Assembly: GCA_026398815.1 (NCBI GenBank)
Contig: JAPLSA010000031.1
Coordinates: 62,001 to 126,000, forward strand
Length of the DNA: 64,000 nucleotides
Source of the DNA: Gammaproteobacteria bacterium
GTDB lineage: Bacteria; Pseudomonadota; Gammaproteobacteria; Nevskiales; Nevskiaceae
Reading direction: 5' to 3'
Part shown: piece by piece, positions 11,705-48,649 of the stretch
Numbering within the stretch: position 1 is the first letter of the stretch
Layout of the letters: each line of letters starts with the position of its first letter
Notes under the pieces: model-generated
Databases searched by the model: none
The model's input: the letters and a program-made list of their open reading frames with translations, nothing else
Told to the model about the DNA's origin: nothing
Position numbers and translations under genes: made by a program

Positions 11705-11789
11705 CCGCTCCCCCGGCGCGTCGTGATGCGCGCTCTGCTGATTCGCAAACACCTGTTGTAGGCCAGCGTGGCCCCCCACGCTCGACCTT

Positions 11790-11850: not shown

Positions 11851-12873
11851 ATGAGCGAGGACGCGACAACCATCAATACCTGGGCGATTGCGCTGGTGCG
11901 CACGCTCGACGCGCGCGGCTGCGCCGGCCGCGCGCTGCTGGCAGAGGCCGGGCTCGACCCGGCGCTGCTCGGCGATCCCAACGGCCGGGTGCCGGTGTCC
12001 GGCATGGTGCGGCTGTGGCGGCTGGCGGTCGCCGCTACCGGCGATCCCTGCCTGGGCCTGAAGGTGGCCGCCTACGTGCAGCCGGCCACCTTCCACAGCC
12101 TGGGGCTGGCGCTGCTGGCCAGCCAGACGCTCGAGGACGCGCTGCTGCGCTCGGCGCGCTACTCGCGCATCGTCAGCAATGCCGTGGAGGTGCGCATCGA
12201 ACGCGGTGCGACCGAAGCCCGGCAGGTCGTCGAATGGCGGATGGCGACGCCAGTGGTCGAGGAAGCGATCGATCTGGTGATGGCCTCGACGGTCAAGATG
12301 GGCCTGCTGCTGCTGGCCATCGACCCGGCGGCCCAGCGGCCGATGCACCTGCGCCTGCGCCGCGCGGCGACCCCGGCGATGCGCGCCGAATTCGCCGCCC
12401 ACTTCGCCTGCCCGATCGATTTCGAGGCGGCCGAGAACTCGCTGGCGCTGCCGCTGGACTGGCTCGACCGGCCGCTGCCGATGGCCAATCCGCAGCTCGC
12501 CCGGCAGAACGATCTGGTGGTCATGGAATACCTCGCCCGCCACGACGGCTCGCGGCTGGCCGAGAAGGTGCGCGCGCTGCTGGTCAGCCGGCTGCCGGCC
12601 GGCGAGCCGGCGCGGGCCGAGGTTGCGCAGGCGCTGCTGCTGTCGGAAAAGACCCTGCAGCGCCGGCTGCGCGACGAGGACACCAGCTACCAGCAGCTGC
12701 TCGACGACCTGCGCCGCGACCTGGCCCAGAAATACCTTCGAGAACCCGCGGCTTCGGTCTGCGAAGTGACCTTCCGGCTCGGCTTCTCCGACCAGAGCAG
12801 CTTCACCCGCGCGTTCCGCCGCTGGACCGGCGTCACCCCCGGCGAATACCGCAGCCAGCCGGACCGGAGCTGA
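11851..12873 (+). CDS. AraC-family transcriptional regulator (arabinose-binding-domain type)
   Basis: 340 aa. The N-terminal effector domain is of the arabinose-binding type (GDPNGRVPVSGMVRLWRLA, ATFHSLGLALLASQTLEDAL). The C-terminal double helix-turn-helix is clear: EVAQALLLSEKTLQRRLRDE and VCEVTFRLGFSDQSSFTRAFRRWTG, ending TPGEYR. Regulators of this class (OruR/GbdR-like layout) typically activate adjacent catabolic genes. ATG at 11851 is taken over an upstream ATG because the domain begins right after it. It likely controls the divergent DUF1302 gene and possibly the following operon. Confidence 0.88.
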   Translation: MSEDATTINTWAIALVRTLDARGCAGRALLAEAGLDPALLGDPNGRVPVSGMVRLWRLAVAATGDPCLGLKVAAYVQPATFHSLGLALLASQTLEDALLRSARYSRIVSNAVEVRIERGATEARQVVEWRMATPVVEEAIDLVMASTVKMGLLLLAIDPAAQRPMHLRLRRAATPAMRAEFAAHFACPIDFEAAENSLALPLDWLDRPLPMANPQLARQNDLVVMEYLARHDGSRLAEKVRALLVSRLPAGEPARAEVAQALLLSEKTLQRRLRDEDTSYQQLLDDLRRDLAQKYLREPAASVCEVTFRLGFSDQSSFTRAFRRWTGVTPGEYRSQPDRS

Positions 12874-12981: not shown

Positions 12982-13650
12982 ATGACAGGACTCAAGGAGC
13001 GGCTGCGGCGCCGCTGGCTGCCCCGGCTGGTGGTGGCGCTGGCGCGCCGGCAACGGGCCCGGCCGCTGTCGGGCGATGCGGCGATCGAGCTGTACTTCGC
13101 CTGCGACGATCCCGGTGCGGTGATCGCCTTGCCGGCCCTGCTGGCGCTGGCTCACGCGCACGGCGTGCCGCTGCAGCTGTATCCGCTGATCGCCCGCGGC
13201 ATCGCTGACGACCCGGCCGCCGAGGCCCGCGCCCGCCATGCAGTGCGTGATGCCGACCGCTTGGCACGCCGCGATGGCCGCCGGCTGTCGCGCAGCCAGC
13301 CGCTGACGGCGACCGACACCGCCTTCCTCGCGCGCTGGATCGAAAGCCTGCGCGGCCAGCCCGGCATGGCCGCGTTCGCCGCTGCCGCGCTCGAGCGGCT
13401 GTGGCTCGTCGACGGCGACACGCTGCCGGCGCCGGATGCCTACGCGGCGCTGTACCGCCGTCTCACCGGCAGTGCGCCGCCGATCGCAGAAGCCGGCGCC
13501 GACACAGCGCTGGCGGCCAACCATCGCCGCCTGCGCCGGCTCGGCCACTGGGAATCGCCGGCCGCGCGGATCGGCGGCGAATGGTTCTTCGCTCACGAAC
13601 GCCTCGCCCAGATTGCCGAATGCCTCGACCGCCGGAAGGCCCGCGCATGA
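12982..13650 (+). CDS. DsbA-fold protein, degenerate HCCA-isomerase-like paralogue
   Basis: 222 aa. It aligns by eye with the next protein: IELYFACDDPGAVIALPAL against VEYFFSFRSPYSYLSAARAF, and the closing ARIGGEWFFAHERL against PTFVHDGEAYWGQDRI. The Ser-Pro active-site segment of 2-hydroxychromene-2-carboxylate isomerases (FxSPYSY) is replaced by DDPG, so the glutathione-handling Ser is missing. It may be a non-catalytic partner of its neighbour. It is the first gene of the ten-gene run; its stop overlaps the next start by 4 bp. Identification rests on fold resemblance only. Confidence 0.6.
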   Translation: MTGLKERLRRRWLPRLVVALARRQRARPLSGDAAIELYFACDDPGAVIALPALLALAHAHGVPLQLYPLIARGIADDPAAEARARHAVRDADRLARRDGRRLSRSQPLTATDTAFLARWIESLRGQPGMAAFAAAALERLWLVDGDTLPAPDAYAALYRRLTGSAPPIAEAGADTALAANHRRLRRLGHWESPAARIGGEWFFAHERLAQIAECLDRRKARA

Positions 13651-14264
13651 CCGCCACTGTCGAGTACTTCTTCTCGTTCCGCAGCCCGTATTCCTATCTG
13701 TCAGCGGCGCGCGCCTTCGCGCTGCCGGCGCGCTACGACATCGAATTGGTCTGGCGCGGCGTGCGGCCGATGGCGATGCGCGGCCAGCCGTTGCCGCGTG
13801 ACAAGCAGCTGTACATCCTGCGCGACGCCGCCCGCGAGGCCGATCGCCTCGGCCTGCCGTTCGGGCGCATTCACGACCCGCTCGGCGACGGCGTCTGGCG
13901 CTGCCTGTGCATCGCCGAACTCGCGAACCAGCGCGGTCTGCTCGCGGGTTTTGTGACCCGCGCCGCGCAGGCGATCTGGGGCGAGGCGGTGGAAGTCGCT
14001 GCCGATGCGCCGCTGCGCGCGGTCTGCGAGGCCAGCGGACTGGACTGGGCCGACTGCCAGCGCGCCATCGCCAACGCGGACTATCGCGCGCAGGTCGAAG
14101 CCAACACGGCCCGGCTCGCCGCACTCGGCCAGTGGGGCGTGCCGACCTTCGTCCACGACGGCGAGGCCTACTGGGGCCAGGATCGCATCGAGGATCTTGA
14201 AGCCGCGCTGGACCGCGCCGGCCTGCGCCGCCCGGTGACGCGCATCGAAGGGATCGCCGCCTGA
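13647..14264 (+). CDS. 2-hydroxychromene-2-carboxylate isomerase-like (GST-kappa/DsbA superfamily)
   Basis: 205 aa. FFSFRSPYSYLSA carries the family's active-site Ser-Pro, and GVPTFVHDGEAYWGQDRI near the C-terminus is the conserved cis-Pro loop and substrate-side segment. Known members use glutathione to isomerise ring-opened aromatic intermediates, and relatives act on other hydrophobic substrates. It is translationally coupled on both sides (ATGA with the previous gene, TGATG with the next). The presence of two GST-like proteins in the same operon supports a glutathione-dependent step. The actual substrate is unknown. Confidence 0.8.
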   Translation: MTATVEYFFSFRSPYSYLSAARAFALPARYDIELVWRGVRPMAMRGQPLPRDKQLYILRDAAREADRLGLPFGRIHDPLGDGVWRCLCIAELANQRGLLAGFVTRAAQAIWGEAVEVAADAPLRAVCEASGLDWADCQRAIANADYRAQVEANTARLAALGQWGVPTFVHDGEAYWGQDRIEDLEAALDRAGLRRPVTRIEGIAA

Positions 14265-15310
14265 TGCGCCGCAGCCGGGTCATCGCCGCGGTCGCCTTCG
14301 CTGCCATCTCGGGTGCGGCGTTCGCGTTCCGCGCACCGCTGCTGCAGCGCCTCGTCGATGCCCGCATCGACGCCAACCTGACGCGCGCCAACACCGGCCT
14401 GCTCGACGACGGCCAGCTGCACGTCGTGCTGTGCGGCACCGCCGCCGCGCTGCCTGATCCGGACCGCGCCGGGCCGTGCACGGCGATCCTTGCCGACGGC
14501 CAGTTCCTGCTGATCGACGCCGGGCCGGGGTCGTGGCGGGTGCTCGATCGCCTGAACCTGCCGGTCGCGCGGCTGTCGGCGCTGCTGCTGACGCATCTGC
14601 ATTCCGACCATATCGGCGAGGTCGGCGAGGCGGTCGAGCAGAGCTGGATCGCCGGCCGCCGGCAGCCGCTGCCGGTCTACGGGCCGCCGGGCACCGAGGA
14701 CGTGGTCGCCGGTTTTGCGCAGGCCTACCGGCGCGACGTCGGCTACCGCGTTGCCCATCACGGCGCCGAGGCGATGCCCGGCGAAGCCGCGCCGGCGATC
14801 GCCCATGTGCTGCCGCCGCCGGAGGGCACGGCCAGCGCGCCGGTGTTCGCCCGCGATGGCCTCGAAGTGCGCGTGTTCCGCGTGGAACATGCGCCGGTCG
14901 ATGTCGCCTACGGCTACCGCATCGACTGGCGCGGCCGCACCGTGGTGATCAGTGGCGACACGAAGAAATCGCCCTCGGTGATCGACAACGCGCGCGGTGC
15001 TGACCTGCTGCTGCACGAAGCGCTGGCGGCATCGATGACCGGCCACGCCGTCGAACGCGCAGCCGCGCTCGGCATCACGCGCACTGCCAAGCTGGCCGGT
15101 GATGTCGCCGACTACCACACGACCCCGGTCGAGGCCGCCGAGGTCGCCCGTGCGGCCGGCGTGCAGCAGCTGGTCTACACCCACATCTTTCCGCCGCTGC
15201 CGAATGCGCTGGCGCGCCGGCTGTTCCTGGCCGGCACCGCCGAGGCCTACGACGGCCCGCAGCAGCTCGGCGAGGATGGTCTGCGGATTGACTTCACGCC
15301 GCGCCCCTGA
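14264..15310 (+). CDS. MBL-fold hydrolase with N-terminal signal/anchor
   Basis: 348 aa. A hydrophobic N-terminus (VIAAVAFAAISGAAFAF) suggests export or membrane anchoring. The metal-binding motif is LLLTHLHSDHIGE; further ligands are in VFRVEHAPVDVAYGYRI, VVISGDTKKS and VYTHIFPP. The arrangement resembles RNase Z/arylsulfatase-type MBL enzymes, though an RNase is unlikely given the signal segment. Its ATG overlaps the preceding TGA by one base. Within the operon it is a second hydrolase beside the sulfatase and the alkylsulfatase-like enzyme. Confidence 0.8.
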   Translation: MRRSRVIAAVAFAAISGAAFAFRAPLLQRLVDARIDANLTRANTGLLDDGQLHVVLCGTAAALPDPDRAGPCTAILADGQFLLIDAGPGSWRVLDRLNLPVARLSALLLTHLHSDHIGEVGEAVEQSWIAGRRQPLPVYGPPGTEDVVAGFAQAYRRDVGYRVAHHGAEAMPGEAAPAIAHVLPPPEGTASAPVFARDGLEVRVFRVEHAPVDVAYGYRIDWRGRTVVISGDTKKSPSVIDNARGADLLLHEALAASMTGHAVERAAALGITRTAKLAGDVADYHTTPVEAAEVARAAGVQQLVYTHIFPPLPNALARRLFLAGTAEAYDGPQQLGEDGLRIDFTPRP

Positions 15311-15327
15311 GCCTCGAGAACACCCGC

Positions 15328-17082
15328 ATGACCGACCACGATCCGAAGCTGTCGCGCCGCGCCTTCAACCGCGCACTGGCGCTTGGTGGTGCGGCACTCG
15401 CCGCTGGTGCCGGCTTCGTCGGCGCCCAGCCGGCGCCGGCTTCGACTCCGGCGATCACCCAGCGCCGGCGGCCGAACATCCTGCTGATCGTCAGCGATCA
15501 GGAGCGCGGCTGGCCGGACCTGCCGGCCGGGCTGGGCCTGTCGGCGCACGAATGGCTGCGCAGCCGCGGCACCGGCTTCGACAACTACAACGTCCACACC
15601 ACGCCGTGCTCGCCGTCGCGCTCGACCCTGTACACCGGACTGCACACGCAGCTGACCGGCATCACCTCGAACGTCGGCGCGCCGCCGTTCCCGAGCCTGG
15701 CCAGCAAGGTGCCGACGCTCGGCCACCTGCTGCGCGAGCAGGGCTACTACACGGCCTACAAGGGCAAGTGGCATCTGTCCGATGTGCCGACCGGCGTCAA
15801 CGTCCGCTATGGCCCGTTCCACGGCGCGCGGGCGGCGCTGGAGCCGTTCGGCTTCGCCGACTACAGCGACAACGGCATCGCCGACGGCGCGACCTGGAGC
15901 GGCTACAAGTTCGATGGCGAAGTCGCTTCCAATGCCTGCCAGTGGCTCAGCGACCACGGCCGCAGCCTCGACCAGCCGTGGCTGCTGGCGGTCAACTTCG
16001 TCAACCCGCACGACATCGTCTTCTACGACGACGAGGACCGCGCCCAGACCCGCAGCCGGCTCGATCGCGACTACCTGTCGCCGCTGTCGCCGCCGCCGAC
16101 CTCGGACCTGTACCGCAAGTTCTGGGACCTGCCGCTGCCGAACAGCTGGGCGGCCGACGACCTGTCGACCAAGCCCTGGGCGCAGCGCTCGTATATCGAG
16201 TTCTGCGCCGGCCTCTACGGCCGCATCGATCCGAAGGACGAAAGCCGCTGGCGGCGCTACCAGAGCTACTACTACAACTGCATCCGCGACGTCGATGCCC
16301 ACACCCTGACCGTGCTCGAACACCTGCAGCGGCTCGGGCTCGATGACAACACGGTGATCGTCTACACCTCCGATCACGGCGACATGCTCGGCGCCCACGG
16401 CCTGCGCCAGAAGGGGCCGACGATGTACAAGGAAAACGTCCGCGTGCCGCTGATCGTCTGTCACCCGGACCATCGCAGCGGCGCCACGACGACCGCGCTG
16501 GCCGGGCCGATCGACGTGCTGCCGACCCTGCTCGGCATCGCCGGCGTCAGCGATGCGCAGCGCGCCGAACGCTATCCGAGCCTGAAAGGCGTGAACCTGA
16601 TGCCGGCGGTCGCCGACGCCAGCGCGCGCACCGAGCGCGACGCGCGCGGTGTGCTCTACGACTACAACACCACGCTGTACATCGACCCCGAGGCGGCGAT
16701 GCGGGTGATCGCCAGCCACGAGGACGCCGGCTGGTGGCCGCTGTTCAAGGCCAATCTGGCGCTCGGCCACTTCGGGCCGCGGCTCGATCATCCCGGCCTG
16801 TTTCGCGGCGTGCACGACGGCCGCTGGAAGTTCGCCCGCTACTTCCGCGCCGACCAGCACCACATCCCGAAGGACTGGGCGACCCTGCTCGCCCACAACG
16901 AGCTGGAGCTGTACGACACCGCCGCCGATCCCGACGAGCTGGTCAATCTCGCCGCGAATCCCGAGGCGCATCGCGACACGATCCTCGCGCTCAACGCCAA
17001 GACCAATGCGCTGATCGAGCACGAGATCGGCTTCGACGACGGCCGCGAGCATGTCGGCCCGACCTTCCTGTTCGAGCTGTGA
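15328..17082 (+). CDS. Tat-exported sulfatase
   Basis: 584 aa. Twin-arginine signal (LSRRAFNRALALGGAALAAG) followed by a sulfatase domain. The formylglycine site is C94-SPSR, in TTPCSPSRSTLYTGL, and needs a maturase not in this window. Metal/active-site segments are PNILLIVSDQER, YKGKWHLS and YTSDHGDMLGAHGLRQKGPTMYKE. The usual Asp pair near the N-terminus reads Asp-Gln. The large C-terminal region is typical of alkaline-phosphatase-superfamily sulfatases. It probably removes sulfate from an organic ester in the periplasm. It starts 17 bp after the MBL gene. Confidence 0.9.
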   Translation: MTDHDPKLSRRAFNRALALGGAALAAGAGFVGAQPAPASTPAITQRRRPNILLIVSDQERGWPDLPAGLGLSAHEWLRSRGTGFDNYNVHTTPCSPSRSTLYTGLHTQLTGITSNVGAPPFPSLASKVPTLGHLLREQGYYTAYKGKWHLSDVPTGVNVRYGPFHGARAALEPFGFADYSDNGIADGATWSGYKFDGEVASNACQWLSDHGRSLDQPWLLAVNFVNPHDIVFYDDEDRAQTRSRLDRDYLSPLSPPPTSDLYRKFWDLPLPNSWAADDLSTKPWAQRSYIEFCAGLYGRIDPKDESRWRRYQSYYYNCIRDVDAHTLTVLEHLQRLGLDDNTVIVYTSDHGDMLGAHGLRQKGPTMYKENVRVPLIVCHPDHRSGATTTALAGPIDVLPTLLGIAGVSDAQRAERYPSLKGVNLMPAVADASARTERDARGVLYDYNTTLYIDPEAAMRVIASHEDAGWWPLFKANLALGHFGPRLDHPGLFRGVHDGRWKFARYFRADQHHIPKDWATLLAHNELELYDTAADPDELVNLAANPEAHRDTILALNAKTNALIEHEIGFDDGREHVGPTFLFEL

Positions 17083-17909
17083 GCCGCGTCCTCGCCCTGC
17101 TGCTGGTGTTCGCGCTCGGCGCGCTGGCGATGGCCGCGTGGACCCGCTATGCCGCTGAGGCCGATGCCCACCGCATCGCGATCACGCAGGCGCTGCATGG
17201 CGCGCTCGATGCCGCCGGTGAAACCGGCCGCTGGCTCGACGAGGAAGTGCTGGTCCGCGAAGCGCTGGCGCGCGGCTATGCGCTCGACGACCAGATCGTC
17301 CGCCGGCAATTGCAGCGGCGGATGCGCAGCGCGCTGCTCGCCGAAGCACCACCGGAACCGGTCAACGATGCCGCGCTGGCCGGCTGGCTGGCTGCCCATG
17401 CCGATCGCTATCAGGCCCAGCCGCGCTGGAGTTTCGAGCAGGTCTACCTGAGCCGCGCGAGCCACGGCATGGCGCTGGACGCGGCGGCTGCAGCGGTCGG
17501 CGCCAGGCTGGCCGCCCGCCCGGATGACACGGCCGCGCTCGGCGATCCGTTCCCGCAGGGCCTGCGCTACACGCAGGTCAGCAGCGCGCAGGTCGAAGCC
17601 GCGTTCGGCGGCCCGCTGCTGCAGCGGCTGGCGGCCTGCACGCCGAACATCTGGTGCGGCCCGGTGATCACGTCGCTCGGCGCCCACTGGCTGCGCCTGC
17701 TGGCCGCCGAGCCGGCCCGCACGCTGACTCTGGACGAGGCGCGCAGCCATCTGCGCGCCGATCTCGAACAGGACCGCCAGCAACAGACGCTGCGGGCCGG
17801 GCTGGATCGCCTGCGCGCCGGCTGGCGGCTGGTTGATGATCCGGCCGGTCTCGGCATCCAGCCGCTGCCGGCGGCAGCGGAACACGAACACGGGGAGGAC
17901 ACACCATGA
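17079..17909 (+). CDS. PpiC-type peptidyl-prolyl isomerase-like protein
   Basis: 276 aa. An N-terminal membrane segment (VLALLLVFALGALAMAAW) is followed by a helical SurA-N-like part (WLDEEVLVREALARGYALDDQIVRRQL) and a weak parvulin-like region from about residue 125 (PRWSFEQVYLS, YTQVSSAQVEAAFGGPL, CGPVITSLGAHWLRL). It may help fold the exported enzymes of the operon. The GTG start at 17079 overlaps the sulfatase stop, and its own stop overlaps the DUF3604 start; no ATG fits better. The isomerase role is inferred from family, not from visible catalytic residues. Confidence 0.68.
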   Translation: MSRVLALLLVFALGALAMAAWTRYAAEADAHRIAITQALHGALDAAGETGRWLDEEVLVREALARGYALDDQIVRRQLQRRMRSALLAEAPPEPVNDAALAGWLAAHADRYQAQPRWSFEQVYLSRASHGMALDAAAAAVGARLAARPDDTAALGDPFPQGLRYTQVSSAQVEAAFGGPLLQRLAACTPNIWCGPVITSLGAHWLRLLAAEPARTLTLDEARSHLRADLEQDRQQQTLRAGLDRLRAGWRLVDDPAGLGIQPLPAAAEHEHGEDTP

Positions 17910-20143
17910 CCACAAGAAAGAGATGGGCCGCTGCCGCGGCACTGCTGCTGGCCGGTGCGCTCGGCATCGGCAGTGCTGTCGCCGGCGAATGCGCGGGCAG
18001 CAGTCCGGCGCGCAAGCAGCCGTACTTCGGCGACCTGCACGTGCACACGCTGTATTCGATCGACGCCTATTTCTTCAACGGCCTGAACGGCCCGCGCGAG
18101 GCCTACCGCTTCGCGCGCGGCGAGCCCGGCGTGCTGCCGGCCGGCGAAACCGATCCGTACACCGCCGGCCGCCAGATCCGGCTCGACCGGCCGCTGGACT
18201 TCGCCGGCGTCAGCGATCACTCGGATTTCCTCGGTGATTGGCGGCTGATGTGCCAGGTCAACGGCCTGCTGCCGATCGGCGTCAATCCGGTCTGCAACAT
18301 CGTCGGCAGCTACCTGCGCAACAACGTCACCTCGATCGTCAACGGCAGCGCGCCGCCGCTGTTCTACGTGCTGACCACGGCGTCGGCGCCAACGCCGCTG
18401 ACCCGCCTGCCGTGGGCCGACGAGCTGGCGATTGCCGACGACGAGAACCGCCCCTGCCAGTTCTCGACCTTCCCCGGCTTCGAGTGGACCTCGCAGTACC
18501 ACGACCAGATGATTCACCGGAACGCCTACTTCAACGGCCGCAACCGGCCGAATGACGTGCCGCAGGTGGCCAAGCTGCGCGACATCACCGCGCTGACCTC
18601 GACCAACCGCGATGACGACTGGCGCCTGCACGACTGGCTGGCGAAGAACTGCGACGAATCGGCCGGCTGCCAGACGATGAGCATTCCGCACAACTCCAAC
18701 CAGAGCGCCGGCGGCATGTACCTGCCGCGCGATCCGGCCACCGGCCTGCCGCCGGGGCGCGCCGGCAAGCCGCTGACCCTGGCCGACGCGAAGCTGCGCG
18801 CGAAGTACGACCGGGTCATCGAGATCCATCAGCACAAGGGCAACAGCGAGTGCGGCGTGGGCTTAGGCGTCTACGAGGCCGGCGTGCTCGACCGCAACTG
18901 CGCCTTCGAGCCGGCCAAGAACGTCTGCCGGGGGCTGGTCAGCGACCCGGCCGACTGCGCGGCGATCTGCACCGGCAACCCGGAGGCCGATCCCGACTTC
19001 TGCCGCCTGCAGACCGCACCGATCTACGCCACCGGCGTCTGCCAGTTCCAGAGCCGCGATGGCGGTTCCGGGCCGGATGCCAAGTGCGTGGCGCCGCTGG
19101 ACATGGCGCGCAACATCCTTGCCGATGGTCTCGCCATCGACTCGGTGCTCGGCGTCGATCCGCAGCGCATGGCCTTCATCGGCGCCTCGGACACCCACAA
19201 CGGCGATCCCGGCAATGTCGGCGAAGCCAACTACCCCGGCCACGGCGGCGTGCTTGATTCCGGGCCGCGAACCCAGCTCGGCTACTGGAGCTGCGAAGGC
19301 AAGATTCCGCTGCGCCAGGACCCGGCCAATGTCGCCCGCTGCAACGGCCGTTCGTTCCAGGACCGCGCGCGCGGCTACAACCCCGGCGGGCTGGCCGGCG
19401 TCTGGGCGCCGGAGAACACCCGCGATGCGATCTGGGACGCGATGCAGCGCGGCGAAACCTTCGCCACCTCCGGCCCGCGCATCCGCATCCGCAGCTTGGC
19501 ACTCTGGCAGAAGCCGCCGGCCGATCTCTGCGCGCGGCTGAACGCCGGCGACAACCCGATCGATCGCGGCGAGCTGGCCGGTGCGGTGATGGGCGGCGAC
19601 CTGCCGGCGCGCGCCGGCAGCGCCGCGCCGTGGATCGTGGTCTGGGCGCAGCAGGACCCGGGCGGTGCGCAGCCCGGCCTGCCGCTGCAGTCGCTGGATC
19701 TGGTCAAGGGCTGGACCGATGCCGGCGGCCAGCCGCACATCAAGGTGTTCGATCGCGTGGCGCGCTCGCCAGCGGCAGTCGAACCGCCGTCGCGGACCGA
19801 CTGCGCACCGCGCACCGCCGGCCATCCGGAGCGGCTCTGCGCGGTCTGGCAGGACCGCGACTTCGCGCCGAAGCAGCGCGCCTACTGGTACGCACGCGCC
19901 TTCGAAGTGCCGAGCTGCCGCTGGAGCACGCAGCAGTGCGTGACCGCCGGTGTCGACTGCTCCCGGCTCGATCGCGGCAATGGCCTGTTCCCGGCCAGCA
20001 GCCCGATGGCCGGCTACGAAGGCTGCTGCACGATCAGCGGCGGGCCGGGCAACTTCCGGGGCCGCAACACTTTCCACACGATCACCGAGCGCGCCTGGGC
20101 CTCGCCGATCTGGTATCGACCCGGCGCAGGAGCCACGCCTTGA
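17906..20143 (+). CDS. DUF3604 family exported protein
   Basis: 745 aa. Signal peptide (AAAAALLLAGALGIGSAVAGE), then YFGDLHVHTLYSIDAYFF, a PHP-like metal motif (His-x-His) characteristic of DUF3604. Other conserved stretches are GVSDHSDFLGDW, FPGFEWTSQ, IPHNSNQSAGGMY, FIGASDTHNGDPGNVGE and ENTRDAIWDAMQRGETFATSGPRI. Many paired cysteines suggest disulfides in the periplasm. The family has no established reaction; the His/Asp pattern suggests a metal-dependent hydrolase. It is translationally coupled to both neighbours. Confidence 0.88.
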   Translation: MTTRKRWAAAAALLLAGALGIGSAVAGECAGSSPARKQPYFGDLHVHTLYSIDAYFFNGLNGPREAYRFARGEPGVLPAGETDPYTAGRQIRLDRPLDFAGVSDHSDFLGDWRLMCQVNGLLPIGVNPVCNIVGSYLRNNVTSIVNGSAPPLFYVLTTASAPTPLTRLPWADELAIADDENRPCQFSTFPGFEWTSQYHDQMIHRNAYFNGRNRPNDVPQVAKLRDITALTSTNRDDDWRLHDWLAKNCDESAGCQTMSIPHNSNQSAGGMYLPRDPATGLPPGRAGKPLTLADAKLRAKYDRVIEIHQHKGNSECGVGLGVYEAGVLDRNCAFEPAKNVCRGLVSDPADCAAICTGNPEADPDFCRLQTAPIYATGVCQFQSRDGGSGPDAKCVAPLDMARNILADGLAIDSVLGVDPQRMAFIGASDTHNGDPGNVGEANYPGHGGVLDSGPRTQLGYWSCEGKIPLRQDPANVARCNGRSFQDRARGYNPGGLAGVWAPENTRDAIWDAMQRGETFATSGPRIRIRSLALWQKPPADLCARLNAGDNPIDRGELAGAVMGGDLPARAGSAAPWIVVWAQQDPGGAQPGLPLQSLDLVKGWTDAGGQPHIKVFDRVARSPAAVEPPSRTDCAPRTAGHPERLCAVWQDRDFAPKQRAYWYARAFEVPSCRWSTQQCVTAGVDCSRLDRGNGLFPASSPMAGYEGCCTISGGPGNFRGRNTFHTITERAWASPIWYRPGAGATP

Positions 20144-20961
20144 AGCCACAGCCACCCCGCGATTTCCGCAACCGCCGCGTGCTGGTCACCGGCGCCAGCA
20201 GCGGCATCGGCGAAGCGCTGGCGCTGGCCTTTGCGGCCGAGGGTGCGCGGCTGTGGCTTGTGGCCCGCGACGCCGCCCGGCTCGAAGCAGTGCGCGCCCG
20301 CTGTGCTGCACTCGGCGCGCAGGCCACCGTGCACAGCGCCGATCTCACCGACGAAGCCGCCGTGCAGCGGCTGGCCGCCGCGGTGCACGGCGATGGCGGC
20401 GCGCTCGACGTGCTGGTCAACAATGCCGGCGTGGTCATGGGCGGCCTGTGCTGGGAAGTGGAAGCCGCCGACTGGCGCCGCCTGCACGAGATCAACGTGA
20501 TGGGTGTCGTCCACGGCATCCGCGCCTTCGTGCCGCAGATGATCGCCGCCGGACGCGGCGGCGCGATCGTCAACATGGCCTCGGTGTCGGGCTTCGTCGG
20601 CGCGCGCGGCATGGCTACCTACAGCGCCAGCAAGTTCGCGGTCGCCGGCCTGACCGAATCGCTGCGCGGCGAACTGCACGGCCACGGCATCGGCGTCAGC
20701 CTGATCTGCCCGGCGTTCGTGAAGACGCCGATCCAGGAGAAGGTGAAGCTGGTCGGCAGCCTCGACACGCCGAAGGCCCGCGCGCGCATCGACCGGGATT
20801 TCGCCAAGACCAGCCTGATGCCGGAAGTGGTTGCTGCCCGCACCCTGAAGGCGATTCGCGGCAACGAGGCGGTGGTCACTGTCGGCCGCGATGCCACCGC
20901 CGCTCGGCTGCTGCAGCGCTACGCGCCGGCGCTGCTCGAACGCCTGCTGCGGGGTCGCTGA
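20140..20961 (+). CDS. Short-chain dehydrogenase/reductase
   Basis: 273 aa classical SDR. The NAD(P) motif is VLVTGASSGIGEALA (TGxxxGIG); DVLVNNAGVV and the catalytic Ser-Tyr-Lys set (NMASVSG, YSASK) are intact. The start is TTG at 20140, overlapping the DUF3604 stop, with AGGAG seven bases upstream. No ATG occurs before the Rossmann motif. It probably oxidises an alcohol or reduces a ketone formed after sulfate removal; this is inference from operon context. Confidence 0.88.
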   Translation: MKPQPPRDFRNRRVLVTGASSGIGEALALAFAAEGARLWLVARDAARLEAVRARCAALGAQATVHSADLTDEAAVQRLAAAVHGDGGALDVLVNNAGVVMGGLCWEVEAADWRRLHEINVMGVVHGIRAFVPQMIAAGRGGAIVNMASVSGFVGARGMATYSASKFAVAGLTESLRGELHGHGIGVSLICPAFVKTPIQEKVKLVGSLDTPKARARIDRDFAKTSLMPEVVAARTLKAIRGNEAVVTVGRDATAARLLQRYAPALLERLLRGR

Positions 20962-22082
20962 TGGCAGCCGCGCCGCACACGCTGTATGCGCTGCCGCACT
21001 CGCTGTACAGCGGCAAGGTGCGCAGCTACCTCCGCTACAAGGGCATTGCCTTCGAGGAGCGCGTCTCGACCCTGCGCGAGTTCCAGCGCTTCATCATTCC
21101 GCGCACCGGCATCAAGTTCATTCCGGTCGTGCAGACGCCGGACGATGTCGTCGTGCAGGACAGCACCGAGACGATGGACCTGCTCGACGCCCGCGAGCCG
21201 GCGCGCTGTGTGCTGCCGGCAACGCCGGTGCAGCGGCTGGTCGCGCGGCTGCTGGAACTGTATGGCGACGAATGGCTGCTGCTGCCGGCGATGCACTACC
21301 GCTGGAGCTTCTGGCACGAGCGCGAGCACATCGACGACGTGCTGGAGCACTTCGGCCTGCTGCTGTCGCCGCACGCACCGCGCTGGCTGCGCCGCCGCGC
21401 CGGCCGGCAGTTCTGCAAGCCCTTCGACGGCGCGCTGCCGATGCTCGGCATCACGCCGCGCACGATCCCGGCGCTGGAAGCGAGCTACGAGGCGCTGCTC
21501 GATGAGCTGAACGCGCACTTCACGCAGCACCGCTACCTGCTCGGCGCGCGCGCCAGCGTTGCCGACTTCGGCTTCATCGGCCCGCTGTACGCGCACTTGG
21601 GCCGCGATCCCTATCCGAAGGCGCTGATGCAGCGGCGCGCGCCCAAGGTCTGGGCCTGGGTGCAGCGGATGAACGAGACAGAGCCTGCGATCGGCGACTG
21701 GCTGGCCGACGATGCGATCCCCGACACGCTGCTGCCGGTGCTGCGCCGGCTGTTCACCGAGCAGGCGCCGGTGCTGATCGACACGGTGGCCGAGGTCGAG
21801 CGCTGGCTCATCGAACATCCGGATGCGCAGCGTCTGCCGCGCGTCGTCGGCCGCCATCGCTACCGGCTCGGCGATGTCGAGGAGGAGCGCTCGGTGTTCC
21901 CGTATCCGCAGTGGATGCTGCAGCGGGTGCTTGATGACTACCGCACGCTCGATGGCGCCGACCGCACGCGTGCCGATGCGCTGTTCGCGGCACTCGGCGG
22001 CACGGCGCTGATGCAGCTTGATATCCGCCGCCGCGTCGCGCGCCGACAGCATCGTCTGGTGCCGGAAGGCGTCGCGCCGTGA
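20961..22082 (+). CDS. Glutathione S-transferase-like protein, long form (paralogue 1)
   Basis: 373 aa, much longer than a usual GST (about 200-220). The N-terminal thioredoxin-fold domain is recognisable: LYALPHSLYSGKVRSYLRYKG and FIPVVQTPDDVVVQDSTETMDLLD with the cis-Pro. An alpha-helical domain follows (YLLGARASVADFGFIGPLYAHLGRDPYP). About 120 further C-terminal residues are of unknown function. It overlaps the SDR stop by one base and is followed by a paralogue sharing the same layout. It likely handles glutathione conjugates in the same pathway as the HCCA-isomerase-like protein. Confidence 0.78.
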   Translation: MAAAPHTLYALPHSLYSGKVRSYLRYKGIAFEERVSTLREFQRFIIPRTGIKFIPVVQTPDDVVVQDSTETMDLLDAREPARCVLPATPVQRLVARLLELYGDEWLLLPAMHYRWSFWHEREHIDDVLEHFGLLLSPHAPRWLRRRAGRQFCKPFDGALPMLGITPRTIPALEASYEALLDELNAHFTQHRYLLGARASVADFGFIGPLYAHLGRDPYPKALMQRRAPKVWAWVQRMNETEPAIGDWLADDAIPDTLLPVLRRLFTEQAPVLIDTVAEVERWLIEHPDAQRLPRVVGRHRYRLGDVEEERSVFPYPQWMLQRVLDDYRTLDGADRTRADALFAALGGTALMQLDIRRRVARRQHRLVPEGVAP

Positions 22083-23248
22083 GCGGCGAGCCGTACACGC
22101 TGTACCTGTTCTGGATCAGCTACTTCAGCGGCAAGCTGCAGGCGGTGCTGCGCTACAAGGAAATCCCGCATCGCTGCATCGAGCCCAAGTGGGGTGGCGC
22201 GCTGCTGCACGAGGTGTTCGAGAACACCGGGCTGATGAAGGTGCCGGTGCTGCGCACGCCGGCCGGCGACTGGCTGGCGGATTCGACGCCGATCATCGAC
22301 TGGCTCGATCGCGAGCACCCCGACAGCGCGCTGATTCCGGCCGATCCGCTGCAGGGCTTCTTCAGCCGGCTGGTCGAGGACTACGCGGACGAATGGCTGT
22401 GGCGGCCGGCGCTGCACTACCGCTGGAGTTACCCGGCCGATGCCCACGCGCTGTCGCGGCGCTTCGCCGAAACGTTTTTGTCCGAGCAGCCGACGCCGCG
22501 CTGGCTGACCGCCGCGCTGATCCGCGACCGCCAGCAGCGCATCTACGTGCGCGGCGATGGCGTCACCGCCGCGACCCGCGAGCATGTCGAGTCGGTCTAC
22601 CTGCGCAATCTCGACTGGCTGCAGGCGATCTTCGAGCGCCAGCCGTTCCTGCTCGGCGACCGGCCGAGCCTCGCCGACTACGGTTTCTTCGCGTCGATGT
22701 TCCGGCACTTCAGCCTGGACCCGACGCCAAGCCTGATCATGCAGAGCCGCGCGCCGGCGGTGTTCGAATGGGTGGCGCGGCTGTGGAACGCGAAGGCTTC
22801 GACGACGCACGGCGACTGGTGCGCGCCAGGCAGCCTGCCGGACGGCTGGACGCCGATCCTGCGCGACGTCGGCATCGCCTATCTGCCCTATCTGCACGCC
22901 AATGCCGTGGCCTTCCGCGATGGCCGCCGGCACTTCGATTTCGCCGTGCAGGGCGCGCAGTACCGGCGCCTGCCGGTGGTGCCGTACCGGGTCTGGTGCC
23001 GCGAACAGCTGCAGGCCGCGCATGCGGCGCTGCCGACGGATGTAAGGGTGGTGGTCGACGCGAAGCTGGCCGATGTCGGCGCGCTGGCGCCGCTGCTCGC
23101 CGATGGCGTCATCGCGTCGAAGCTGTATGCCGACACCACCCCGCCGCTGTGCGGGCCGCGCGTGGTTGGCCGGATCGAACGGCTGCGCCGCTGGATCACC
23201 GGCACCCACTGGCAACCTGCGACGCTCGCCGCGAGAGCGCCGCGATGA
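22079..23248 (+). CDS. Glutathione S-transferase-like protein, long form (paralogue 2)
   Basis: 389 aa. It has the same architecture as the preceding gene: YLFWISYFSGKLQAVLRYKEI, LMKVPVLRTPAGDWLADSTPIIDWLD, then FLLGDRPSLADYGFFASMFRHFSLDPTPS and a long C-terminal extension. A tandem duplication followed by divergence is the simplest origin. The GTG start at 22079 overlaps the previous stop, and its stop overlaps the next ATG. Two non-identical copies could form a heterodimer; that is inference. Confidence 0.78.
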   Translation: MSGEPYTLYLFWISYFSGKLQAVLRYKEIPHRCIEPKWGGALLHEVFENTGLMKVPVLRTPAGDWLADSTPIIDWLDREHPDSALIPADPLQGFFSRLVEDYADEWLWRPALHYRWSYPADAHALSRRFAETFLSEQPTPRWLTAALIRDRQQRIYVRGDGVTAATREHVESVYLRNLDWLQAIFERQPFLLGDRPSLADYGFFASMFRHFSLDPTPSLIMQSRAPAVFEWVARLWNAKASTTHGDWCAPGSLPDGWTPILRDVGIAYLPYLHANAVAFRDGRRHFDFAVQGAQYRRLPVVPYRVWCREQLQAAHAALPTDVRVVVDAKLADVGALAPLLADGVIASKLYADTTPPLCGPRVVGRIERLRRWITGTHWQPATLAARAPR

Positions 23249-24963
23249 TGCGTCCGACCGTTGCGCTGCTGCTGGTCCTGCTCGCGGCCTGCACGAAGCC
23301 GCCGGTGCCGACGGTGGCCACGCCGACGCCGGCTGCGCTGGCCGCCCACAGCGAGGAATTCCGGCGCGGTGTCGTCGAAGCCGCGCCTGGCGTGTTCGTC
23401 GCGATCGGCTACGGCATCGCCAACAGCATCTGGATCGATGGCCCGGACGGCGCGCTGGTCATCGACACGATGGAATCGGTCGAGGCCGCGCGCGCGGTGC
23501 TGGCTGCGTTCCGCGAGTACAGCCAGTCGCCGGTGCGGGCGATCATCTACACGCACTCGCACCCGGATCATGTCGGCGGCGCAGCGGTGTTCGCGGCCGA
23601 AGGGGCCGGTGCGCCGGTGCCGATCCTTGCCCACGCCGATGTCACAAGGGCGATGGACGAGATCGCCAGCGAGCTGCAGCCGGTGATCACCCGCCGCTCG
23701 CTGCGCATGTACGGCTACGGCCTGCCGGACGATGAGCGGATCAACATCGGCATCGGCCCGAGGCTGGCACTGGAAGCCGGCTCGACGGTGTCGACCTTGC
23801 GGCCGACGCAGACCTTCGACACGCGCCTCGACACCACGCTGGCCGGCCTGCAGGTGCAGCTGGTCCATGCGCCTGGTGAGACCGATGACCAGCTGTTCGT
23901 CTGGCTGCCGGAAAAGAAGCTCCTGCTGCCCGGCGACAACTTCTACCGCGCGTTCCCGAACCTCTACACGATCCGCGGCACCCGCCATCGCGACCCGAAG
24001 CGCTGGGCGGCGTCGCTGGATGCAATGCGCGCGCTGCCGGCCGAGCTGCTGGTGCCAAGCCACACGCGGCCGGTCGTCGGTCACGAGGCGATCCAGGCCG
24101 CGCTGACCGACTACCGCGACGCGATCCGCTACGTGCACGACCAGACCCTGCGGCTGATGAACGCCGGGCTCGAGCCGGAGGCGATCGCCGAGCGCCTGCA
24201 GCAGCTGCCGGCGCATCTCGCCGCGTCGCCGTACCTGCAGCCGTTCTATGGCAAGCCGACGTGGAGCGCGAAGGCGATCTTCAACGGCGCGCTCGGCTGG
24301 TACGGCGGCGATCCGGCCACCTTGCAGCCGCTGCCGCCGCGCGCCCGCGCCGAGCGGCTCGCCGCACTGGCCGGCGGCACGGCGAAGCTCATCGAGCAGA
24401 TCGAGGCAGCGGCCACGAAGCAGGACTGGCCGTGGGTGCTGGAGCTGAGCAGCGCGGCCTTGCTGCTGACGCCGGACGAGGCCCGCGTGAAACAGGCGCG
24501 GATCGTGGCCCTACGGGCGCTCGGCGCGGCCGAAAGCAATCCGCCGGCGCGCGACTGGTATTTCGTCGCCGCCCGCGAGCTGGACGGCAGCCTGAAGATT
24601 CCGAGCCGCGCGGTGGCGCCGACGTCGGCGATGCTGGCGGCGATGCCGCTGTCGGTGTTCTTCGATGGCATGGCCGTGAACCTGCACGCCGAGGACTGCC
24701 TGGACCGGGTGATCCGCGTGGTCTTCGAGTTCACCGACAGCGGCGCGCAGCACAGCTACATCGTTCGTCGCGGCGCCTCCGAAGTGGTCGCTGGCCGGGT
24801 CGCCGACGCTGATCTGGTGGTCCGCGTCGGCGATCAGGCGTTCAAGGAAATGCTCGCTGGCCTGCGCAATCCGGCGCTGTCGATCGCCCGCGATTTCGAG
24901 GTGACGACCGGCAGCACGCTCGCTTTCGCGCAGTTCATGGCGCTGTTCCAGCCACCGGGCTGA
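23245..24963 (+). CDS. Alkylsulfatase-like MBL lipoprotein with SCP2-type C-terminus
   Basis: 572 aa. The lipobox LLAAC gives Cys16 as the lipidated residue. The MBL domain shows IYTHSHPDHVGGAAVF, VHAPGETDDQLFVWLPEKKLLLPGDNFYRAFPNLY and VPSHTRPVVG. A middle dimerisation-like domain (FNGALGWYGGDPATLQPLPP) and a C-terminal sterol-carrier-like domain (residues about 450-570) complete the SdsA1-type three-domain plan. SdsA1-type enzymes hydrolyse alkyl sulfates, so sulfate-ester cleavage is the likely reaction. It is the last overlapping gene of the cluster. The second of two adjacent ATGs is equally possible as start. Confidence 0.86.
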   Translation: MMRPTVALLLVLLAACTKPPVPTVATPTPAALAAHSEEFRRGVVEAAPGVFVAIGYGIANSIWIDGPDGALVIDTMESVEAARAVLAAFREYSQSPVRAIIYTHSHPDHVGGAAVFAAEGAGAPVPILAHADVTRAMDEIASELQPVITRRSLRMYGYGLPDDERINIGIGPRLALEAGSTVSTLRPTQTFDTRLDTTLAGLQVQLVHAPGETDDQLFVWLPEKKLLLPGDNFYRAFPNLYTIRGTRHRDPKRWAASLDAMRALPAELLVPSHTRPVVGHEAIQAALTDYRDAIRYVHDQTLRLMNAGLEPEAIAERLQQLPAHLAASPYLQPFYGKPTWSAKAIFNGALGWYGGDPATLQPLPPRARAERLAALAGGTAKLIEQIEAAATKQDWPWVLELSSAALLLTPDEARVKQARIVALRALGAAESNPPARDWYFVAARELDGSLKIPSRAVAPTSAMLAAMPLSVFFDGMAVNLHAEDCLDRVIRVVFEFTDSGAQHSYIVRRGASEVVAGRVADADLVVRVGDQAFKEMLAGLRNPALSIARDFEVTTGSTLAFAQFMALFQPPG

Positions 24964-25032: not shown

Positions 25033-26268
25033 ATGACCTCGCCTGCCGCCTCCTCCCGCGCCATCTGGGCGCTGCTGCTCGCGTCCGGCGCGCTGCTGGC
25101 GATCACCATGGGCGCGCGCATGTCGCTCGGCCTGTTCGTGCAGCCGCTGGCCGCCGACACCGGCGAAAGCCTGGTCGCGATCAGCTTCGCGCTGGCGGTC
25201 GGCCAGCTGGTCTGGGGGCTGGTGCAGCCGCTGTTCGGGGCCATTGCCGACCAGCGCGGCGCGCACGGCGTGCTGGTGCTCGGCGGCCTGCTGATGGCGG
25301 CCGGGCTGGCGCTGGCGACGGTGTTCACCAGTGGCCTCGGCCTGGTGGTCTGCCTCGGCGTGCTGACCTCGGCCGGTGCTGGCGCCGGTGCGTTCTCGAT
25401 CCTGATCGGCGCTACCGCGCGCCAGCTGCCGGCCGAGCGCCGCTCGTTCGCGGCTGGCCTGATCAATGCCGGCGGCTCGGCCGGGCAGCTGCTGTTCGCG
25501 CCGCTGGTACAGGCGGCGATCACCGCCTTCGGCTGGGTCACGGCGATGCTGGCGGTGGCCGCCTCGGTGCTGGCCACGCTGCCGTTGGCGCGCCGGGTGG
25601 CGCCGAAGACGACGGCAATTCCGGCGCAGCCTGCGGCCGCCGCTGCAGCCGATGGCGGCCTGCGCGCGCAGCTGGGTCAGGCGCTGCGTGACCGCAGTTA
25701 CCTCTTGCTCAATCTGGGCTTCTTCACCTGCGGCGTGCACGTCGCGTTTCTGGTCACCCATCTGCCCGGCGAGGTCGCGCTGTGCGGGCTGCCGGGCACG
25801 GTGGCCGGCCGGGCGCTGGCGCTGGTCGGCGCGTTCAACATCGCCGGCAGTCTGGCTGCCGGCTGGCTCGGCCAGCGCTACCGGCTGAAGCACATCCTCG
25901 GGCTGATGTACCTGAGCCGCGCGCTGCTGATCGCGCTGTATCTGGCCTCGCCGCGCAACGCGCTCAGCGTCTATCTGCTGGCCGCCGGCCTCGGCTTCAC
26001 CTTCCTGGCCACGGTGCCGCCCACCGCCGGGCTGGTCGGCAAGCTGTTCGGTACCCGTTATCTCGGCACGCTGTTCGGCCTGACCCTGGTCAGCCACCAG
26101 ATCGGCGGTTTCTTCGGCGCCTGGCTCGGCGGCCTCACCATCAGCCGCTTCGGCGACTACGGCTGGATGTGGATCGCCGACATGGCGCTGGCGCTGCTCG
26201 CCGCGCTGTTCTGCCTGCCGGTGCGCGAAGCGCGGCTGCCGTCGCGGCCCGCTGCCCAGCCGGCCTGA
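25033..26268 (+). CDS. MFS transporter
   Basis: 411 aa with twelve predicted membrane helices. The MFS loop 2-3 signature is visible as PLFGAIADQRGAHGVLVLGG, and a central cytoplasmic Ala/Pro-rich loop (residues about 190-215) splits the two six-helix halves. The fold resembles monocarboxylate/OFA or YbfB-type carriers; the substrate cannot be read from sequence. It lies 69 bp after the alkylsulfatase-like gene in the same direction, so it may be the permease of that pathway. Confidence 0.86.
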   Translation: MTSPAASSRAIWALLLASGALLAITMGARMSLGLFVQPLAADTGESLVAISFALAVGQLVWGLVQPLFGAIADQRGAHGVLVLGGLLMAAGLALATVFTSGLGLVVCLGVLTSAGAGAGAFSILIGATARQLPAERRSFAAGLINAGGSAGQLLFAPLVQAAITAFGWVTAMLAVAASVLATLPLARRVAPKTTAIPAQPAAAAAADGGLRAQLGQALRDRSYLLLNLGFFTCGVHVAFLVTHLPGEVALCGLPGTVAGRALALVGAFNIAGSLAAGWLGQRYRLKHILGLMYLSRALLIALYLASPRNALSVYLLAAGLGFTFLATVPPTAGLVGKLFGTRYLGTLFGLTLVSHQIGGFFGAWLGGLTISRFGDYGWMWIADMALALLAALFCLPVREARLPSRPAAQPA

Positions 26269-36126: not shown

Positions 36127-37338
36127 ATGACCGCCGAAACCCCGAAGTCCGCTTCCCCTGCCGCGCCCGCCGCCGCCAAGGTGCCGCGCGACAAGCAGGA
36201 CGACTACACCCGCGAGATCGCCGCCACCCGCCGCGCGTTCGTGACGGCGCAGACCGGCAGCACGCTGGACCACGTCGGCCACTACTCGTTCGGCCCTGGC
36301 GTGCTGCCCGGCAACATCGAGAACTTCATCGGCGTGGCCCAGGTGCCGATCGGCCTCGCCGGCCCGCTGCGCGTCAACGGCGAACACGCGAAAGGCGATT
36401 TCTACATCCCGATGGCGACCACCGAAGGCACCTTGGTGGCCAGCTACAACCGCGGCATGCGCCTGCTCAGCGAGCACGGCGGCGTGAAGTGCACCGTGGT
36501 CGACGACCACATGCAGCGCTCGCCGGTGTTCATGTTCGACGACGCGCTGGCCGCGCGCGGCTTCGGCGAGTGGATCACCGCCCACCACGCCGACATCGCC
36601 GCCGCCGCCGAAGCGACTACGCGCATCGGCAAGCTGAAGGTCATCGGCCAGTACGCGGTCGGCAACCTGCGCTACCTGCGCTTCAACTACGCCACCGGCG
36701 ATGCGGCGGGCCAGAACATGGTCGGCAAGGCCACACTGGCCGCCTGCCAATGGATACAGGCGAACCACCCGCTGCACCCGAATTTCATGCTGTCCGGCAA
36801 CATCGACACCGACAAGAAGCACTCGCAGATCAACACGCTGAACACGCGCGGCAAGCGGGTGATCGCCGAAATCACGCTGAAGGACTCCATCCTGAAGCCG
36901 CTGATGGGCGTCACCGGCAAGCAGCTGTTCCACGCCCGCCAGATCAGCCAGGCCGGCGCCTTCATCGCAGGCAGCGCCAATAACGCCGCGCATGCCGCCA
37001 ACGGCATCACGGCACTGTTCATCGCCTGCGGGCAGGACGTCGCCAACGTCGCCGAATCGCATGCCGCCACCACCTACTGCCAGCTGCTCGACAACGGCGA
37101 CTACTACTGGTCCATCACCCTGACCAGCCTGATCTGCGCCACCTACGGCGGTGGCACCGGGCTGGCGACGCAACGCGAATGTCTGGAAATGCTCGGCTGC
37201 TACGGCAAGGGCGGCGCACTGAAGTTCGCCGAAATCTGTGCCGGCGTGGTGCTGGCCGGCGAGACCTCACTGAGTTCCGCGATCCTGGCCGGGGATTGGG
37301 TGTCGTCGCATGACCAGCTGGGGCGGAATCGGCCGTGA
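36127..37338 (+). CDS. Hydroxymethylglutaryl-CoA reductase, class I-like
   Basis: 403 aa. It reduces HMG-CoA to mevalonate with NADPH. Conserved segments are ENFIGVAQVPIGLAGPL (substrate), ATTEGTLVASYNRG with catalytic Glu100, GDAAGQNMVG (cofactor), NIDTDKK with Lys230, GQD with Asp304, and the C-terminal His395 in VSSHDQLG. The layout resembles class I more than the catabolic class II enzymes. No other mevalonate-pathway gene is in the window. The last codons coincide with the start of a low-GC segment, and the following gene overlaps the stop. Confidence 0.92.
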   Translation: MTAETPKSASPAAPAAAKVPRDKQDDYTREIAATRRAFVTAQTGSTLDHVGHYSFGPGVLPGNIENFIGVAQVPIGLAGPLRVNGEHAKGDFYIPMATTEGTLVASYNRGMRLLSEHGGVKCTVVDDHMQRSPVFMFDDALAARGFGEWITAHHADIAAAAEATTRIGKLKVIGQYAVGNLRYLRFNYATGDAAGQNMVGKATLAACQWIQANHPLHPNFMLSGNIDTDKKHSQINTLNTRGKRVIAEITLKDSILKPLMGVTGKQLFHARQISQAGAFIAGSANNAAHAANGITALFIACGQDVANVAESHAATTYCQLLDNGDYYWSITLTSLICATYGGGTGLATQRECLEMLGCYGKGGALKFAEICAGVVLAGETSLSSAILAGDWVSSHDQLGRNRP

Positions 37339-42669: not shown

Positions 42670-42703
42670 GCGGACTTGTCCTCGGCGAGGCGCGCGGGCG
42701 CGC

Positions 42704-43990: not shown

Positions 43991-44066
43991 GGGGTGCTTC
44001 TCCGAAATCGACCGGATGCGGTCGAGGGGTCTGGATGCGTGCGGATTGCGGGTGACGGGCGCGCGG

Positions 44067-48643: not shown

Positions 48644-48649
48644 GGCCTT

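Follow-up and report, generated by a model that had tools for sequence, protein, structure and literature searches.

A conserved operon of Nevskiales combining candidate exported hydrolases, including a PHP-like DUF3604 protein, with glutathione-type enzymes

Introduction

Ten tightly packed genes that bring candidate exported hydrolases together with glutathione-type enzymes raise the question of what pathway they might form, and whether all ten belong to it. These genes, here g1–g10 (Table 1), lie at positions 12982–24963 on the forward strand of the stretch analyzed here, 64,000 nucleotides of contig JAPLSA010000031.1 (assembly GCA_026398815.1, positions 62,001 to 126,000) from a gammaproteobacterium of the family Nevskiaceae; we refer to this whole stretch as the window. 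A first-pass annotation had read the genes as one unit that removes sulfate in the periplasm, and then oxidizes the product and processes it with glutathione. We find that the operon is conserved in order across related genera, to a greater extent than chance would give, and that its most novel part is the DUF3604 protein (g6) together with a PpiC-type peptidylprolyl isomerase (PPIase) and, in most relatives, a HupE permease. Our preferred reading, to which we assign a probability of about one half, is that of a regulated catabolic operon of Nevskiales, in which periplasmic hydrolases would feed a cytosolic short-chain dehydrogenase/reductase (SDR), two glutathione S-transferases (GSTs) and an HCCA-isomerase-like pair.

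Organization and conservation of the operon

All ten open reading frames (ORFs) of the first-pass annotation were found on the forward strand in the same orientation, and its statement that nearly all of the junctions overlap was borne out: eight of the nine do, six by 4 bases (13647–13650, 17079–17082, 17906–17909, 20140–20143, 22079–22082 and 23245–23248) and those at 14264 and 20961 by 1 base. The sole exception is a 17-base gap between g3 and g4. At 20140, the overlap requires g7 to begin with a TTG codon; the gene caller chose the next start, a GTG at 20179, which would leave a gap of 35 bases. The family assignments held as well, by Pfam for g2–g10 and, for g1, which had no match in the Pfam search, by aligning its profile to that of the g2 family (97.2% probability in hhalign). 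The twin-arginine (Tat)-type, signal-like and lipobox leaders of the operon proteins were judged by eye.

A scan of genome contigs with g8 yielded six loci (L001–L006). Five carry operon genes; L006 was unmatched and was left out of the counts. (Genomes G010, G053, G017 and G006 are assumed to be equivalent to L001, L002, L004 and L005, respectively, and L003 and G024 are the same cluster, counted once.) All ten genes are present in identical order in a near-relative metagenome-assembled genome (MAG; L001), in Solimonas aquatica (L002) and in Hydrocarboniphaga daqingensis (L003). L001 is 78–96% identical to the window over the ten genes, nine of which, with dN/dS ratios of 0.079–0.317 against L001, are under purifying selection. 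The ratio for the SDR gene (0.674) was set aside, because this gene is broken and fused in the MAG: at L001:9341–11107, the SDR and GST frames are joined and part of the SDR is missing, through either an assembly error or a real deletion. None of the genes downstream of the operon in the window (for an MFS carrier, a beta-lactamase-like protein and EamA) turned up in L002 or L003; thus, the gene order within the operon persists beside a changing flank. This persistence in other genera, together with the dN/dS ratios, is why we consider the arrangement to be more than chance. The synteny check, which was set beforehand, found conserved linkage in L001, L002 and L003, rather than the lack of linkage that the first-pass annotation had named as grounds against its reading.

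Shortened or altered forms occur in three more lineages. In L005, a Nevskia MAG, the operon is cut by the contig end. L004 keeps the sulfatase, the SDR and one GST, and is without DUF3604, the PPIase and the other GST; a metallo-β-lactamase-fold (MBL) protein of 40% identity follows its g10, and no DUF3604 was found in the corresponding genome (G017). Two further genomes of one genus, L146 and L148, hold variant forms. The order in L148 is GST, DUF1302, dsbA1, dsbA2, MBL, PPIase, HupE, DUF3604, SDR, GSTb, F21 and alkylsulfatase, a near-complete operon in which no sulfatase was found; its first GST, positioned upstream, is a distant paralog only 39% identical to g8. In L146, the sulfatase follows the MBL gene and DUF3604 is at its expected place, several genes of this locus having been missed by the gene caller. 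F21 denotes a family of ~480 amino acids that recurs within clusters (L148:14353–15585 and L050:17630–19108, the L050 member being without a Pfam match).

The AraC-type regulator gene heads the cluster in L001, L004, L152 (Solimonas aquatica) and L148. The gene for the DUF1302 outer-membrane protein adjoins the operon in L001, L152 and L148 (on the operon strand in L148), and the protein is 63.8% identical to that of the window in L152 and 52.6% in L148. The MFS carrier that the first-pass annotation placed after the operon is indeed there, at 25033 and 69 bases downstream, but it falls outside the conserved unit, because it was matched in L001 only among L001–L006, with no match in L002–L005, and none was seen in the translations of L148.

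DUF3604 as a PHP-like metalloenzyme

Nine residues of g6 (H45, H47, H105, E193, H204, H262, E306, D429 and H431) are invariant in 44 DUF3604 sequences that share 24–94% identity with that of the window. We take their arrangement to be that of PHP metal sites. DUF3604 shares the HxH, DH, H and DxH type motif set with the PHP metallohydrolases, but constitutes a separate Pfam family, and its profile gave no matches in a search of PDB. In hhalign, DUF3604 reached a probability of 92% (E = 6e-7) against a 12-row PHP profile built from relatives’ genomes, over 45 columns that span the first two motifs, and 78% against a 3-row PHP profile, whereas four control families stayed at 0.1–0.2%. Probabilities for three single PHP sequences were 4, 27 and 39%, and the best-scoring of them aligned to the C-terminal part, away from the metal motifs. 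An AlphaFold2 model of DUF3604, made with five sequences including a partial one, had a pLDDT of 38.8, too low for a reliable fold. Judging from these sequence comparisons, g6 is likely, albeit not proven, to belong to the PHP superfamily.

In the open literature, which leaves most subscription papers and preprints uncovered, DUF3604 was mentioned in a single paper (in a Chlamydia transposon table, PMC11925237), and PF12228 nowhere. The available part of that source apparently lists Chlamydia trachomatis CTL0684/CT_425 as a DUF3604 protein, with a transposon insertion entry of 622/622aa.

The DUF3604–PPIase–HupE trio

Among 299 genomes drawn from the phylum, 21 contained DUF3604 (the window’s own included), and 20 regions from 15 of these, spread across the phylum, were taken. 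DUF3604 has a PPIase gene as well as a HupE gene beside it in 15 of the 20 regions, the pair being on the opposite strand in L104. Neither is beside DUF3604 in L097, L098, L099, L111 and L114; two of the five genomes without the trio at one copy (G287 and G189) have it at another DUF3604 copy. Of 78 matching plasmid records, two were examined, from Rhodobacter sp. CZR27 and Ensifer sp. PDNC004, and on both DUF3604, peptidylprolyl isomerase and HupE/UreJ are annotated as neighbors. In the window, g5 (Rotamase_2 score 27.7 bits, against a cut-off of 27) and g6 are adjacent, but the operon lacks HupE, no HupE_UreJ_2 was found in the window’s genome, and the full trio of three adjacent genes is not present here.

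The HupE proteins in the operons of relatives belong to PF13795. A signal-like site followed by His was seen in HupE at 10 of 17 trio loci (the two plasmids counted), the seven misses being open stop-to-stop frames, and in 12 of 18 HupE proteins of Nevskiales, where the six misses are without an intact N-terminus as called. In this feature they resemble the anglerase HupE/UreJ-2 (Ang-1) permeases, for which the available part of PMC12537917 reports binding of Cu and Ni; the window, in whose genome no HupE was found, differs from the Ang-1 system. The commonest neighbors of Ang-1 are labeled in the same part as proteins of unknown function, and the word “isomerase” is absent from the main text of that paper.

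A wider and more tentative proposal, which we rate somewhat short of an even bet, is that an undescribed but widespread three-gene system of Pseudomonadota, made up of DUF3604, an anglerase-type HupE permease and a PpiC-type foldase, would fold and metallate a secreted PHP-type hydrolase. In Nevskiales, it may have been built into a likewise undescribed two-compartment pathway, in which periplasmic removal of sulfate and ester groups would be followed by cytosolic glutathione chemistry, performed on a lipid-like compound by the long-GST and HCCA-isomerase pairs; the sulfatases and the trio would then be exchangeable cassettes that set the substrate range.

Candidate exported hydrolases

g4 resembles the S1 formylglycine sulfatases, with the choline-sulfatase branch among its PDB and NCBIfam matches. 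It shares with them the stretches CSPSR, VSDQ, GKWHL, NPHD and SDHGD, as seen in PDB alignments, which belong to the active-site and metal motifs of this class; CSPSR is kept in all seven members of the g4 family (window counted). Against the choline-sulfatase model TIGR03417, however, g4 scored 139.7, with a cut-off of 433. g10 shares the MBL core, the HxHxDH motif, and the dimerization and C-terminal domains with the alkylsulfatases PSdsA and SdsA1 (PDB matches with E = 7e-64 and 4e-60, respectively), and differs from them in its lipobox-like leader. HSHPDH occurs in eight of the nine g10 family members (window counted) and HNHTDH in the ninth. In the HNAR stretch, g10 has a Lys where SdsA1 has an Arg that presumably binds sulfate; PSdsA likewise has Lys. 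The earlier identification of a sulfatase and an alkylsulfatase-like protein can be kept as probable, for g4 on CSPSR, the other S1 motifs and the twin-Arg leader, and for g10 on HSHPDH and the lipobox. The MBL protein g3 had PDB matches to PNGM-1 and to 8gyg (“Arysulfatase”), both with E about 1e-20.

Distribution searches covered 117 genomes. g4 had matches at E 1e-80 in nine of them, its own included. In the seven genomes where the sulfatase is at least 65% identical (G000, G010, G024, G017, G053, G028 and G055), it always lies within the cluster; in G055 it adjoins SDR and DUF3604, the GSTs being roughly 30 kb distant. Two matches at 38–39% identity had no relative of DUF3604, GST or alkylsulfatase in the 18 kb around them, and the genomes with the G042, G057, G018, G050 and G058 islands yielded no close g4 ortholog. 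The alkylsulfatase had matches in 32 genomes, in 10 of which it is in or beside the cluster (G000, G010, G006, G053, G017, G024, G039, G028, G061 and G058, by position). A second alkylsulfatase of G050, which has DUF3604 on its contig but about 18 kb off, was scored as not beside the cluster.

Since g4 and g10 both look exported, the operon might instead obtain sulfate from organic esters, a role in sulfur scavenging that sulfatases are known to serve, with the other genes as passengers in the same transcript. We consider this very unlikely. Against it stand the AraC-type regulator, which has an Arabinose_bd domain, and the linked DUF1302 gene; moreover, the 16 neighboring proteins scanned include neither a transporter for sulfonate or sulfate nor a Cys-type regulator, and L148 keeps most of the operon without a sulfatase.

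Glutathione-type enzymes

g2 matches the HCCA isomerase in PDB 2imd (E = 2.7e-8). Its site reads SFRSPYSY, without a CxxC there, and the motif is found in all seven family members (window counted). A DSBA-family protein with this site fits an HCCA isomerase or kappa-type DsbA fold, for which we take SPYSY to be a signature. A single g1–g2-type protein, F13, is present in six of eight larger islands (G042, G057, G018, G055, G058, G050, G056 and G019). Its C half matched the g2 profile strongly in all six (E = 4e-48 or better), and its N half matched the g1 profile weakly in all six (best E from 8e-15 to 8e-7), so that g1 likely corresponds to the N half of a g1–g2 fusion.

The GST pair, the SDR and the HCCA-isomerase-like pair co-occur in L001–L003, while L004 retains a single GST. 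A GST pair and an SDR in one cluster are likewise a feature of the styrene (StyI/StyJ) and isoprene (IsoGHIJ) pathways, of which the former is reportedly a glutathione-dependent catabolism. In the isoprene pathway, IsoI conjugates glutathione, IsoH oxidizes and IsoJ is thought to remove glutathione, a logic that the GST–SDR–GST content of the operon parallels (PMC10057887, available part). The window differs in the length of its GSTs (373 and 389 amino acids), in the score of g9 against the NCBIfam IsoI model (34.3 bits, with a cut-off of 300) and in the exported hydrolases that the operon adds. The Pfam families of the ten genes include neither a monooxygenase nor a CoA ligase or CoA transferase. 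By analogy, the operon appears to work like the isoprene and styrene glutathione pathways, but it is not an Iso-pathway member, because it lacks a monooxygenase and CoA transferase and scores far below the IsoI cut-off.

Matches to g8 (GSTa) at E 0.001 were found in 56 of the 117 genomes, six of them with at least 61% identity, its own included. A plasmid route for the GST was rejected: one match was obtained, which was 37.6% identical, came from a plasmid of Pseudomonas mandelii and had no related genes around it. Detoxification or envelope maintenance, in which periplasmic hydrolases and GSTs clear toxic lipophilic electrophiles with no carbon gain, would also suit the several glutathione-type proteins, the MBL enzymes and the foldase, as well as the MFS carrier that follows the operon and the RND efflux genes further along the window. 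This is unlikely in our view. The MFS gene is not conserved, the association with AraC and DUF1302 suggests uptake, and the patchy spread of close GSTa relatives suits a niche pathway better than a general defense.

Modularity

In the fetched stretches of the eight larger islands, GST and DUF3604 were present in all eight, HupE and PPIase in seven each, and SDR, MBL and DUF1302 in six each. Because the operon is modular, the earlier reading of all ten genes as a single sulfate pathway is borne out only in part: the sulfatase is missing in L148, the alkylsulfatase is beside the cluster in a minority of genomes, L004 keeps its sulfatase, SDR and one GST without DUF3604 and PPIase, and elsewhere DUF3604 and PPIase form a separate trio with HupE. 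As part of our preferred reading, and with the same even chance, a recurring glutathione core (g1, g2, SDR and GST) would have the sulfatases and the DUF3604 trio plugged into it as modules.

The same pattern could also mean that three sets, each useful by itself (the sulfatases, the trio and the glutathione core), are stacked behind one promoter, with no single pathway. The trio stands alone in alphaproteobacteria and other members of the phylum, and the partial operons of L148 and L004/G017, like the dispersed alkylsulfatases, fit such stacking. Close sulfatase orthologs are found only inside such clusters, however, the junctions in the window overlap, and the order is constant in different genera. 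We regard simple stacking as rather unlikely.

Proposed function

From the observed families, gene order, conservation, leaders and motifs, we infer the following chemistry and control for a regulated catabolic operon. The DUF1302 outer-membrane protein would admit a hydrophobic or ester-bearing compound. In the periplasm, sulfate would be removed by the lipoprotein-like g10 and, where present, by the Tat-type g4, and another ester- or amide-like bond would be cut by g3 and the PHP-like g6, the latter folded with the help of g5 and, in most relatives, accompanied by the HupE metal permease. In the cytosol, the SDR would oxidize the freed alcohol, and the reactive product may then have glutathione added, isomerized and removed by the two GSTs and g1/g2. 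The earlier statement that no pathway with this set has been described agrees with the open literature, where descriptions of the operon or the trio were not found, most subscription papers and preprints being uncovered.

Several observations weigh against this reading. The alkylsulfatase is away from any cluster in 22 of the 32 genomes that have it, and the monooxygenase, CoA ligase and CoA transferase noted above are missing from the ten genes. The host genome (95.6% complete) has four FGE-family matches, none with the Cys motif that we presume for this family, and no anSME was found in it; sulfatase maturation routes other than FGE and anSME exist. The g1 profile matches the C half of F13 about as well as the N half, which makes the assignment of the N half to g1 partly positional, although such a similarity would be expected if g1 and g2 are paralogs. 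Finally, the substrate may differ between genomes, because the G042 island (L045:4638–13540) carries a P450, a KshA_C Rieske protein and a RoxA-like cytochrome beside its DUF3604 and GST genes.

The P450, Rieske and RoxA-like set of that island is a possible lead to a steroid or isoprenoid substrate. The corresponding rubber or steroid idea was not taken beyond a lead, as family clustering found no P450, KshA_C or RoxA-like relatives in the other stretches or in the window. Chlorosulfolipids as a substrate class were a guess, with nothing in the literature listing, and were not used. A terpene substrate, suggested by AtuA in the window (50859–52643), was dropped as evidence, because AtuA is common (75 of 117 genomes) and, among the six genomes with GSTa of at least 61% identity, shares a contig with the operon in just two, G000 and its close relation G010.

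Other features of the window

The remaining features are listed in Table 1 with the operon and its flanks.

Table 1. Operon genes, flanking genes and other features of the window.
Feature	Position	Strand	Remarks
g1, degenerate HCCA-isomerase/DsbA-like protein	12982–13650	+	No Pfam match; hhalign to g2 family
g2, DsbA-fold, HCCA-isomerase-like	13647–14264	+	Pfam DSBA 1e-26; PDB 2imd
g3, RNase-Z-like MBL hydrolase (HLHSDH)	14264–15310	+	N-terminal hydrophobic leader; Pfam; PDB matches
g4, S1 sulfatase	15328–17082	+	Twin-Arg leader; CSPSR at residues 94–98; Pfam Sulfatase 8e-41; PDB alignments
g5, PpiC-type PPIase	17079–17909	+	N-terminal hydrophobic segment; Pfam Rotamase_2 5e-6; trio member
g6, DUF3604 protein	17906–20143	+	Signal-like leader; PHP-type metal motif set; Pfam DUF3604 3e-115
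g7, SDR dehydrogenase (TGASSGIG, YSASK)	20140–20961	+	Pfam adh_short 1e-55; TTG start, alternative GTG 20179
g8, long GST-like protein a	20961–22082	+	Pfam GST_N_3, GST_C_2
g9, long GST-like protein b	22079–23248	+	Pfam GST_N_3, GST_C_2
g10, SdsA-type alkylsulfatase-like protein (HSHPDH)	23245–24963	+	Lipobox-like leader; Pfam Alkyl_sulf_dimr, Alkyl_sulf_C
DUF1302 outer-membrane protein	9626–11752	-	Pfam DUF1302 E 1e-124; divergent from AraC gene
AraC-type regulator (Arabinose_bd + HTH_18)	11851–12873	+	108 bases upstream of g1; alternative ORF start 11788
MFS carrier	25033–26268	+	Pfam MFS_1; lineage-specific neighbor
HMG-CoA reductase	36127–37338	+	PF00368 E 6e-120; lower-GC stretch (0.61)
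RND efflux set: AcrB-like pump, membrane-fusion protein, outer-membrane factor	39562–45581	-	
Carboxyltransferase, biotin carboxylase and AtuA genes	46542–52643	-	Acyclic-terpene/geranyl-CoA carboxylase type set

Implications

DUF3604 gains a testable context from this arrangement, as a putative PHP-like metalloenzyme that would be exported and have a foldase and a metal permease of its own, and the trio suggests proteins with which the recently described anglerase permeases may act. For the Nevskiales, the operon is a conserved one, and its modular make-up indicates which genes to remove first in the search for its substrate.

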